DNA of 64,000 bases from Bolinopsis microptera (lineage: Eukaryota > Ctenophora > Tentaculata > Lobata > Bolinopsidae), in NCBI RefSeq assembly GCF_026151205.1, contig NC_087074.1, positions 10,697,226-10,761,225 on the forward strand. Direction: 5' to 3'. Under the pieces are notes generated by a model, which saw nothing but the letters and a program-made list of their open reading frames with translations, did no database searches and was not told where the DNA came from. Positions 26,901 to 32,900 of this stretch are shown in pieces. Each line of letters opens with the position of its first letter. Position 1 is the stretch's first letter. Position numbers and translations under genes: made by a program.

Positions 26901-29900
26901 GGTAAGAGACGAGAGTAATCTTCTTATTAATGTTTAGATAAATGTTTATAATCATATTTAATTAGACTAACTTTTAAATTCAGTTCTGTAATTTAAACAA
27001 ATTAGTTTGATCAATGACAACTCTTAGTAGTGTCCATCTGCAACCTCATGACAAGTTACAAAAGGTACTTAATTACACACACACAGCACTGTACATAACA
27101 CCACTGTAATGGTACAGTACGCGTCTTTTAGTTACCACAAAGCGTGTGTGTGTGTGTGTGTGTACGTGTTAGTTTTCTCTTACAATAATTCAAATTCCTT
27201 ACCTTGAACATGATATCAGTTTTATCTTACAGTTCCTGATATCTGTAGAAATAGTAATAATATAATCCTGTTTGCAAGGCTTCACATCACACGGTCACAA
27301 AGAAACGGTTGCAATTTGAGAAGATAATAATCATAAAATTTGTTCCAAGTTAGGGTTAAAAAGACTGTGGAGATTTTCTAGTGATAATTTGGCCATCACC
27401 ACAGCATCTGTAGATACAGTTCGGTGGGAATTTTTTTCCCTGCTCTTGCCGAAGGCAAAAAGATCGTAGGGAATAAGTAATCGGGTTTGGATATATGAGG
27501 TGGCCCGACGGTCCTACGTTGACGACAAAAGTCTGCTCCTTCGCAATATAGACCACTCCCCTATAATTATGAGTATAGGAAGCGTCTGTTATGCTGCGCG
27601 CAACGCTCGGCATGTGTTAGTTAATTGCAGTATCCAACGCGAATTTCAATTGTCAAACGATGCCGTTCAAATTAAATTAGCCCAAAGTTTGTGCGCGGCG
27701 TACTAAATATTCGATTATCCTGCACGCGCGCAATGACAAATTACGATGAAAATATTGCAACTTTTTAACAACAAAATAATCCAATATCTAATTTTTATTA
27801 ATCGATAAAATTATCTTTTCGTTTAGTTGCAAATGTTAACGGTTTAAGCAGGGAAAATTAATCGTGCGTGGTGTAACCGCGGCGAAATTCTTGTTTTATA
27901 TAGTTCATTCTTATAAAGTTCATTCTTATGAAGTTATAGTTCATTCTTATGAAGCAACTCAAGTATAACTCACTTATTTATCCGTAGTTGATGAATTTAA
28001 ATATGTCGCATCTTGCAAGCATATTAAGATATTACAATCTGTAATGAGAATTCAAGCGTACAGTAATCAAGTTTTAAATTCACAATACTTGATACTGCAA
28101 AAAGTTTAACTGTCCAATAATTCATTATAGTCTGATGTCACTTTATCAAGATCCTTTATATCAGTGTTACAGAGCAGGCATGCTTGACGCTCACTTATAC
28201 TGCTTAGATTTGAGAATCGTTCATTGGACATTAAAGATAGTGAAAAACCAGTTTTGGCAGATAGTAACTTTATCACAACTATTCCAAAAATGTCAAAATC
28301 CACCATAATTTTTTCACCTTCTTAGTTACACGGTCACTAAGGATTAGTGGTTACCTTGGTTACCCTGGTTACCTTGGTTACCTCATGATATAAAAGAGTA
28401 AAAGTTACCTCTCACACCATTCTCATGATTTCTATTTTCAGGATAGAAATATTATCTCTCACACCATTCTCATGATTTCTATTTTCAGGACAGCAATGTT
28501 ACCTCTCACACCATTCTCATGATTTCTATTTTCAGGACAGCAATGTTACCTCTCACACCATTCTCATGATTTCTATTTTCAGGACAGCAATGTTACCTCT
28601 CACACCATTCTCATGATTTCTATTTTCAGGACAGCAATGTTACCTCTCAGACCATTCTCATGATTTCTATTTTCAGGACAGCAATGTTAGCTCTCACACC
28701 ATTCTCATGATTTCTATTTTCAGGACAGCAATGTTACCTCTCACACCATTCTCATGATTTCTATTTTTAGGATGTAGCAATGTTACCTCTCACACCATTC
28801 TCATGATTTCTATTTTCAGGACAGCAATGTTACCTCTCACACCATTCTCATGATTTCTATTTTCAGGACAGCAATGTTACCTCTCACACCATTCTCATGA
28901 TTTATATTTTCAGGACAGCAATGTTACCTCTCACACCATTCTCATGATTTCTATTTTCAGGACAGCAATGTTATCTCTCACACCATTCTCACGATTTCTA
29001 TTTTCAGGACAGAAATATTACCTCTCACACCATTCTCATGATTTATATTTTCAGGACAGCAATGTTACCTCTCACACCATTCTCATGATTTCTATTTTCA
29101 GGACAGCAATGTTACCTCTCACACCATTCTCATGTTTTCTATTTTCAGGACAGAAATATTACCTCTCACACCATTCTCATGATTTCTATTTTCAGGACAG
29201 CAATGTTACCTCTCACACCATTCTCATGATTTCTATTTTCAGGACAGCAATGTTACCACTCACACCATTCTCATGATTTCTATTTTCAGGACAGCAATGT
29301 TACCTCTCACACCATTCTCATGATTTCTATTTTCAGGACAGCAATGTTACCTCTCACACCATTCTCATGATTTCTATTTTCAGGACAGCAATGTTACCTC
29401 TCACACCATTCTCATGTTTTCTATTTTCAGGACAGAAATATTACCTCTCACACCATTCTCATGATTTCTATTTTCAGGACAGCAATGTTACCTCTCACAC
29501 CATTCTCATGATTTATATTTTCAGGACAGCAATGTTACCTCTCACACCATTCTCATGATTTCTATTTTCAGGACAGCAATGTTACCTCTCACACCATTCT
29601 CATGTTTTCTATTTTCAGGACAGAAATATTACCTCTCACACCATTCTCATGATTTCTATTTTCAGGACAGCAATGTTACCTCTCACACCATTCTCATGAT
29701 TTCTATTTTCAGGACAGCAATGTTACCACTCACACCATTCTCATGATTTCTATTTTCAGGACAGCAATGTTACCTCTCACACCATTTTCATGATTTCTAT
29801 TTTCAGGACAGCAATGTTACCTCTCAGACCATTCTCATGATTTCTATTTTCAGGACAGCAATGTTACCTCTCACACCATTCTCATGATTTCTATTTTCAG

Positions 29901-32900
29901 GATGTAGCAATGTTACCTCTCACACCATTCTCATGATTTCTATTTTCAGGACAGCAATGTTACCTCTCACACCATTCTCATGATTTCTATTTTCAGGACA
30001 GCAATGTTACCTCTCACACCATTCTCATGATTTCTATTTTCAGGACAGCAATGTTACCTCTCACACCATTTTCATGATTTCTATTTTCAGGACAGCAATG
30101 TTATCTCTCACACCATTCTCACGATTTCTATTTTCAGGACAGAAATATTACCTCTCACACCATTCTCATGATTTCTATTTTCAGGACAGCAATGTTACCT
30201 CTCACACCATTCTCATGATTAATATTTTCAGGTCAGCAATGTTACCTCTCACAGCATTCTCATGATTTATATTTTCAGGACAGCAATGTTACCTCTCACA
30301 CCATTCTCATGTTTTCTATTTTCAGGACAGCAATGTTACCTCTCACACCATTCTCATGATTTCTATTTTCAGGACAGCAATGTCACCTCTCACACCATTC
30401 TCATGTTTTCTATTTTCAGGACAGCAATGGCGTACATCTCGGATATTGCGGATAAGAACAGCAGGACATCTCGGATTGCAATAGCAGATGGCATGTTGCA
30501 ACTTGGGGCCATGTTTGGTGAGTTGAGCCACTAAACTCATTGCCTTGATAAGACGTTAGTTCCTTATATCGGGAATGTAAGGACATGTCATATCTAGCAA
30601 ACTATTTATAAGTACTAAGTAGGTCAATTAAAAACATCGGAGATACTACGTTATGTAAAGGGCATGTACATTGAGAGATTAAATTTGTTAGATACCTATA
30701 GTACAAGGTCAATCTCATACTGATTGTGAGAATGCACTTTAAAAATTAATGCGGCATTGTTAACTGTGAGGAATAGTTGCTTTATGACAGTAAATTACTT
30801 TATCTCAATCTGATATGAGTGGAAGTTACCAATGAAACACCATACATGCCATGTTATTATATATAATAAAGCTGTACTTTATCAGTAATAAGTATTGAAA
30901 GATAACCTCTTATTGTAGGTACGTTTGTAAGCGGTCTGTTGATGTCCCATGCTACCTGGTACAGCACACCACTACTTTGCGTTTCTGTTAACGTGAGCTT
31001 TATTCATTATTTCCTCTTTTATTTTAGATCCCTGCCGAACCTACCTAAAGTAACCTAAAGTAACCTAAAGTAACCTAAAGTATCCTAAAGTAACCTAAAG
31101 TAAGTAAGTAATTATTATGTATAATTGATGTAGAGGCTTAGATATTTGGTTTTCATAAATTATTGATGTAAAGACGTCAGACAAGTCGTTAAAATTGGTA
31201 CGTGGTTTTTGATAATTCCAATTAGTTCCCCCTGTTCGTCAACTTTTAAATCGAGAAGGAGCTAGGAAATTACTTAGAAATTGGATCAGGTGATTGAGTA
31301 ATTTGATAGGGAACATGGTGGAGAGTGTATAATCTTACTGCCTACTGGTGTTAGGGTAATTCATAAACTAGCTCTATCATGTTTACTCGACTAACCTCTT
31401 AAACATTTAAAACATTTTGATTTATCATAGCACCGAACATCTGGTCACTTGTGAACAATCAAGGACGCTAAACTTTGCAGTCCCGAGTTTCATTTTACAC
31501 GCGACATTTGTTACGGAACACGCGAAGTATTGTTATCTTTTTAATGTTCAAACCAAGCAACAGGGCTTACTTAGCACGCACGCGTTTTTAGCGCGCATTG
31601 CTGATTTATTTCTGGTCTGGCCATACGTTTACGTACCTTTTTGGGTGACACTCTATATTTTCGTCCCTTACATCATTCACTGCTTACATCAATTTTATCT
31701 TTCCACTTTGTGCTTATGCTCCCACAATTCACACCTCCATCACTGGCCACCTCGGTTCTCACACCATGTATATATATTTCTCCTAAGGTTAAAGGTACCG
31801 TTGTCTGACGGTCGCGCTAAATCACTCTACAGTCGATTTTTTATTTTCATCTCTTTTAGTTTCGCATTGGATAAAGCACATGTTATATCCGCGCGTTACG
31901 TGTGATCATATTTAATCCTGATTTCCCAATTACGTTTCTACTACATGCAGCTTTATACTTTGGATTTCAAACTTCGAGTTTTCGTCAACAGTCAATAATT
32001 ATCCATGATTCATCTGCATCAGTGCCACTTGTGTTATACCTTATAGAATTAGAATTAGAATTAGAATTAGAAATTAGAATTAGAAATTAGAATTAGAAAT
32101 TAGAATTAGAAATTAGAATTAGAAATTAGAATTAGAAATTAGAATTAGAAATTAGAAAGATCATTACAAAATTACATGTGCTGAGATTTTAATATAAAGC
32201 AAAACTAAGTATCATTAAACTAGTTTAGGTTAAGCCTGATGGTTTGAGTCCTATTTAAACATATTTTTGATATCGTGTCCATTAGTCAATGATCAATCAG
32301 ATGTTATATGTTATAACATTACGAACTTATTATATCCAGTATCCACGTTTGCGCTAATTGTGTGATCCTAGAGTTGCAAATTTTACATTCGTTTTAATGG
32401 TGTTTCTTTTATATACGAAGAGCATCTATTGTTGTTCCTTAAGCCGGCTGAACCAGCTATTGTAAACGTTTACGGTCTAAAATGCTGCTCACTTTAGAAT
32501 CACTAAGCTTCTTATTTGAATCCTTAATTTCTGACATCATAATTCCTAAATCTAGGCTGCAAAAATGATAGGTTATCGGATTGTGACCTGAGCAGTGAGC
32601 AGCCGAAACTGACATTATTGTTATATTTATAATATAATTATATTGTGTAGTTTATAGAGTATAAATTTATTGTATAACTTGATTTTATTTCTATAGAAGT
32701 GTTTCGACCAGTTAATTTAGTAAACTAACATAATACAGTACGTCTGCAGTTCCGACTGTAATTCGAAATATTCTGTAGGAATCCATATATTTGTTGGTCA
32801 ATATATTAATATGATGTTTGGTTCATTTGAACTTTGCCTTCTAGAATCTTATAGTGTGAATATTATATTATAGATATTTACAGCGAATATTTTAATTATC

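Follow-up and report, generated by a model that had tools for sequence, protein, structure and literature searches.

An intron ending in 43 near-identical acceptors: a large boundary minisatellite, best read as mirage-like, in an SLC46-like gene of Bolinopsis microptera

The window analyzed here is a stretch of 64,000 nucleotides from the ctenophore Bolinopsis microptera (contig NC_087074.1, positions 10,697,226 to 10,761,225, forward strand), and the element in question is a 47-bp minisatellite that occupies the end of intron 3 of a transporter gene and runs into its exon 4. The gene was modeled from open frames and splice consensus sequences, and its exons were joined for protein searches. 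The joined protein had a sole match in the PDB up to an E value of 1, the proton-coupled folate transporter (PCFT) 7bc6 (E = 3e-12), and a Pfam match to MFS_1 (8.5e-21). An earlier reading, made from the sequence only and without searches, had called the gene SLC46-like, and because of these two matches the label stands, as an assignment by similarity to a PCFT-related protein. The best-matching stretch falls in the C-terminal half, and exons 1 to 5 alone gave no match in the PDB at E 0.001. Intron 3 has 3,518 nt and intron 4 has 401 nt; exon 4, with its 98 nt, would shift the frame if it were skipped.

The minisatellite has a period of 47 bp and 43.0 copies with 95% matches (score 3722; Tandem Repeats Finder [TRF]), and 43 tandem units at this level of matching rule out a chance origin. 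Splitting at ATTTT[CT]AG|G, with the regular spacing as a check that no acceptor was skipped, gave 43 consecutive acceptors, the first exonic bases running from 28442 to 30420; two units measure 49 bp. Each unit consists of 37 bp of intron 3 and 10 bp of exon 4. Hence, the sequence-only reading was right about the approximately 43 copies, about a unit composed of pyrimidine tract, AG, and the first ten bases of exon 4, and about an array that runs into the true exon, since the last copy provides the modeled acceptor at 30420. That reading had named an exon start differing from the unit as one observation that would speak against it; in fact the first ten bases of the exon, GACAGCAATG, are the same as those of the commonest unit. 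Beyond base ten the two have diverged, exon 4 reading GCGTACATC and the unit TTACCTCTC, and the acceptor of the final unit opens into GACAGCAATGGCGTACATC and the remainder of exon 4. The array end had been placed at 30440, which is 20 bases inside the exon, and is corrected to 30429 (TRF).

Closer inspection of the units included those of a second array of 79 units, which belongs to a second version of the locus described below. The acceptor AG is kept in all 122 units (43 + 79). The acceptors had been described as identical, which they are not: there are 22 unit types among 120 units (both arrays, the first unit of each left out), and the 23-base acceptor (−20 to +3) is the same as the real one in 5 of the 43 window units, the real one included. 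Another 26 of the 43 differ from it by a single base, an A for a T in the pyrimidine tract. Most units do have the ATG said to follow each acceptor, but of the 42 units that come after the first, 6 (types F, G, and N) lack GCAATG. The motifs CTCAC and CTCAT, putative branch points by their resemblance to the usual consensus, are located 27 and 16 nt before the end of the AG. Since 41 of the 43 units in the window and 67 of the 79 in the second array have CTCAC at this position, and since the 25 nt before the acceptor almost always lack another AG (42/43 and 78/79 units, respectively), most units appear to be near-complete 3′ splice sites with branch-point-like motif, pyrimidine tract, and AG. 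The real acceptor has 13 pyrimidines between −20 and −5; it shares this count with 4 other units of the 43, and the remaining 38 have at most 12. This most pyrimidine-rich class stands last in both versions. With the first unit of each array and the eight 49-bp units set aside, 112 units remain, all of 47 bp; among these, 16 of the 47 columns are variable and the AG columns are constant; for the acceptor core, with 1 of 9 columns variable against 16 of 47 overall, neither selection for nor selection against the decoy acceptors was shown (P = 0.11). In sum, this is a natural intron with 43 and, in the second version, 79 near-identical acceptors, an arrangement that is striking in size but known already in kind.

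The second array was found on the same contig (C3:10522165-10525892) by a search of the assembly with two of the units and is the only other array among the matches listed. Its 79 units are followed by an exon 4 identical to that of the window. The surroundings recur as well: positions 1-63742 of the window are found largely in order at C3:10504999-10565708, about 192 kb upstream, with 0.2-3% mismatches between the two regions and large insertions on either side. Neighboring stretches match at ~88-99% where they match, and one 4-kb probe had no match among the 15 matches listed. A long tandem duplication would account for the two versions, as would two haplotypes placed one after the other. 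The sequence-only reading suggested that the copy number could vary between individuals; within this one assembly, to which both numbers belong, it differs between the two versions, alleles or duplicates, which carry 43 and 79 units. The 19-bp array of intron 2, used as an internal control, has 88.6 copies in the window and 89.6 in the second version; it changed by one unit, in contrast to the great change of the acceptor array.

The order of unit types is common to both arrays near their ends (units 2-8, and all but two of the window's last 15); the interiors differ in order, and the longer array has a repeated block of 14 units. Between the versions, mismatches stop at 27781 on the left of the array and resume at 30582 on the right. 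The mismatch rate is 8/4,631 just left of the array versus 27/1,321 just right of it (0.17% versus 2.04%; Fisher P = 6e-12), and over 11 stretches in 1-54135, with simple arrays left out, it is 32/10,327 on the left and 171/13,182 on the right. Such a step would be compatible with a tract of exchange or conversion whose end lies in the array, but we offer it as an observation only, and the reading is weakened by the fact that divergence varies elsewhere between the versions, too. A protein search of the same genome with exons 3 to 5 showed exons 3 and 4, among the matches listed, in these two versions only, with no array-free relative beside them. Exon 5 occurs a third time at C8:14303345-14303428, together with its flanks and some of the neighboring PLAT-like sequence; the 3 kb examined near this copy show no similarity to exon 4. 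In the window, an open reading frame with a PLAT/LH2 domain (40067-40549, minus strand; Pfam 1.2e-05) is located between transporter exons 5 and 6.

The modeled exons on both sides of the array are open in both versions. Exons 1 to 5 show zero differences between them, and exons 6 to 10 (771 nt) show seven, all of which are synonymous (P = 5e-5 versus random changes, in a model with transitions doubled). The protein seems, from this comparison, to be conserved beside either array length (43 or 79), which argues that productive splicing occurs. The gene model probably lacks one exon between exons 5 and 6; a search by filter found none. An alternative start of exon 8 was rejected because it leaves stops in frame; the start at 45767 opens the frame in both versions. 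The features are compiled in Table 1.

Table 1. Coordinates of the SLC46-like gene and its repeat features, as positions in the window
Feature	Position	Strand	Basis
Exon 1	23942-24088	+	Gene model
Exon 2	24238-24446	+	Gene model
Degenerate second copy of exon-2 donor boundary, 28/32 bases	24539..24570	+	32-base window comparison
Intron-2 array of 19-bp units (~88 copies), the internal control	24679..26337	+	TRF; version comparison
Exon 3; donor GTAAGA	26802..26901	+	Gene model
47-bp minisatellite, 43 copies	28404..30429	+	TRF, unit split, motif counts, 79-unit second version
42 upstream (decoy) acceptors, first exonic bases, first to last	28442..30373	+	Unit split; 41/42 lead to a stop
141-nt in-frame extension (three units, +47 codons)	30279..30419	+	Frame analysis; same position open in second version
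Exon 4, 98 nt, donor GTGAGT; acceptor is last repeat unit	30420..30517	+	Open frame with neighbors; MFS_1 and PCFT matches of joined protein
Exon 5	30919..30992	+	Gene model
Exons 6-10	44562-44745, 44960-45115, 45767-45855, 46072-46223, 46417-46606	+	Gene model; stop codon in exon 10

What would happen if an upstream acceptor were chosen can be read from the frame. In the window, a stop follows within exons 4-5 for 41 of the 42 upstream choices, in 40 cases >50 nt ahead of the exon-4 donor; the second version has a stop for 77 of its 78 upstream choices. The sequence-only reading had envisaged frameshifting or long N-shifted exons from the upstream copies; nearly all of them would end in a stop. 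The sole open upstream choice, in both versions, is the acceptor three units up, which would add 141 nt, or 47 codons in frame. It stays open because its unit reads ATGTTT instead of ATGATT and, therefore, has no TGA. The T in place of A is found in 5 of 43 window units, and the open choice is not remarkable by itself.

Boundary duplication may have occurred more than once in this gene. Both ends of each of the 10 exons, 20 in all with the stop codon taken as the last, were compared in 32-base windows with the sequence within 1.5 kb, matches <40 bases away being left out. The highest scores were those of the exon-2 donor (28/32) and the exon-4 acceptor (26/32), followed by the exon-5 donor (22) and the exon-2 acceptor (21). 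The copy of the exon-2 donor is located 108 bp downstream, within 24431-24570, and still reads GCGG|GTAAGG, so that it resembles a donor mirage of two copies. However, 14 of 227 control positions also reached at least 24 matches (73 of the 300 positions drawn had been dropped beforehand as lying inside known arrays), and further boundary duplications in the gene are therefore suggestive only. Just before the exon-2 acceptor, a 13-bp repeat, CTGCTAATTACCA (24200-24229, 2.3 copies), doubles the branch-point-like CTAAT. Across the genome, a pattern of three TTTTCAGG at 28-58 bp spacing occurred at 218 + 149 places, compared to 36 + 57 for the reversed pattern used as the control; 103 places are accounted for by the two arrays described here. 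A variant pattern occurred at 43 + 124 places versus 29 + 55 reversed, with long arrays on C7, C8, and C9 among the matches listed. Long TTTTCAGG-bearing arrays with steps of ~39-51 bp are, among these matches, C7:11292312-11293564, C8:17989345-17990271, and C9:16559818 onward.

Elsewhere in the window, TRF found an interstitial telomere-like AGGGTT array of ~24 copies (8705-8849). An insertion at 54135-57545 has a 949-aa open frame that looks, by eye, like a long interspersed nuclear element (LINE) endonuclease/reverse transcriptase and is absent at the collinear place of the second version. At 58336-61792 (minus strand), a module labeled Ig-like by eye recurs approximately every 1,045 bp; a Pfam scan of one related open reading frame gave no match.

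How may the array have arisen, and how may the gene cope with it? We propose that a slip or unequal exchange first made a second copy of the 47 bp that straddle the intron 3/exon 4 boundary and that the array then grew, turning over as an ordinary minisatellite would, until 42 (or 78) decoys stood before the real acceptor. Most transcripts would be spliced to the last acceptor, which is nearest to the exon-4 donor and would be selected by exon definition, the exon being 98 nt long and the intron before it 3.5 kb; its membership in the most pyrimidine-rich class may favor it further. Transcripts joined to upstream copies would run into early stops and be removed by nonsense-mediated decay (NMD). 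The array would then not have evolved as a device but would be a passenger that the gene tolerates, perhaps at the price of some transcripts, and we regard this explanation as a whole as likely. The last acceptor is probably the main productive one because exon definition is reported to favor sites nearest across the exon (PMC9225289) and because the mirages of amphioxus, to which we return below, are described as harmless to splicing. For 3′ sites, the data reported are a weaker preference for the upstream site when introns are long (PMC9225289). Several points weigh against a dominant last acceptor. In competing pairs of 3′ sites, the upstream one is reportedly preferred overall (PMC9225289). 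A duplicated strong 3′ site is described as able to bind two U2AF and two U2 small nuclear ribonucleoproteins (snRNPs) and as splicing poorly (PMC5389562), so that splicing of an intron with 43 such sites could be blocked. Intron 4 has only 401 nt, which makes exon definition an assumption. Finally, the search for an exon between exons 5 and 6 found none, and the start of exon 8 was picked to keep the frame.

The main rival to a dominant last acceptor, which we consider doubtful, is a poison-splice rheostat: upstream acceptors, or multiple occupancy by U2AF and U2 snRNPs, would be used often, giving NMD targets or a retained intron, and the array length would set the transporter level. The stops at 41/42 and 77/78 upstream sites and the difference of 36 units between the versions are consistent with it, as are the poor splicing of a doubly bound 3′ site (PMC5389562) and the overall preference for upstream sites (PMC9225289) as reported. 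However, the acceptor core shows no significant conservation (P = 0.11), and the amphioxus mirages are reported to be harmless to splicing (PMC3087553). It is imaginable, though decidedly unlikely, that the minisatellite acts as a self-expanding copy-number rheostat, in which every added unit would bind U2AF/U2 and send transcripts into NMD, such that 43 versus 79 units would yield measurably different amounts of functional mRNA. An assembly artifact, with the array or its copy number being wrong, is very improbable: the copy numbers come from one assembly and near-identical versions ~200 kb apart could be haplotypes placed in series, but the same boundary is found in both versions with different unit orders and with flanks differing by insertions. 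A second protein form made from the acceptor three units up is hardly credible: no other upstream choice is open in either version, but the T occurs in 5/43 window units (chance about 0.12), the insert would fall in a likely transmembrane helix, and the two versions, probably sharing the choice by descent, are not two tests.

Three further candidates were rejected. Recursive splicing would call for AG|GT, but the consensus unit reads CAG|GA, and one acceptor per version with CAG|GTC is too weak to build on. The consensus unit has only a weak GT (AAT|GTTACC), and therefore, units are unlikely to serve as internal exons as they stand. Masking of the array end by RNA structure was not supported, since the fold of 30280-30517 is not unusual (z = 1.19).

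Work on how a 3′ splice site is chosen among complete sites usually pits just two of them against each other. With 43 and 79 near-identical acceptors in two near-identical gene versions, and a frame that marks nearly every wrong choice with a stop, the locus is a natural test of 3′ splice-site competition, in which proximity across the exon, first-come scanning, and multiple occupancy are the competing rules at stake. More than one acceptor in tandem is also present in NAGNAG-type acceptors. Tandem duplication has been proposed as a route to new introns (PMC3087553). Different from both, the sites described here are 47 bp apart, and most have branch-point-like motifs of their own.

The closest relatives are the mirages, reportedly first described by Canestro in 2002. 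Mirages are tandem, minisatellite-like copies of an intron-exon boundary, described for BflGb6, BflGb9, and Adh3 of amphioxus, with cephalochordates as the reported host group (PMC3087553). Among the papers listed in literature searches for boundary minisatellites, they were the match in kind, and none of those listed showed a case with tens of acceptors. They are reported not to disturb regular splicing (PMC3087553), and the same is said of the mirages of Adh, troponin C, and PGBD5 (PMC3902484). As described for the amphioxus mirages, the unit spans an exon-intron boundary (37 bp of intron and 10 bp of exon), the array adjoins the authentic boundary (here according to the gene model), and splice signals are kept in many units (43 and 79 evenly spaced AG units). 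Furthermore, the length varies between haplotypes or copies, here 43 versus 79 in alleles or duplicates, and the interior is homogenized with the edge units left out, here with units 2-8 and 13 of the last 15 in agreement and differing interiors. The sizes are different: BflGb6 is reported with 6 and 3 units of 150-160 bp and Adh3 with units of 10-72 bp, compared to 43 and 79 units of 47 bp. The array is thus best read as a new, very large, mirage-like boundary minisatellite. With the GloC-2x3′ss construct (PMC5389562), as far as described there, it shares strong acceptors in series on one pre-mRNA; that construct is an engineered substrate with two sites, whereas the 43-79 sites described here belong to a natural gene.

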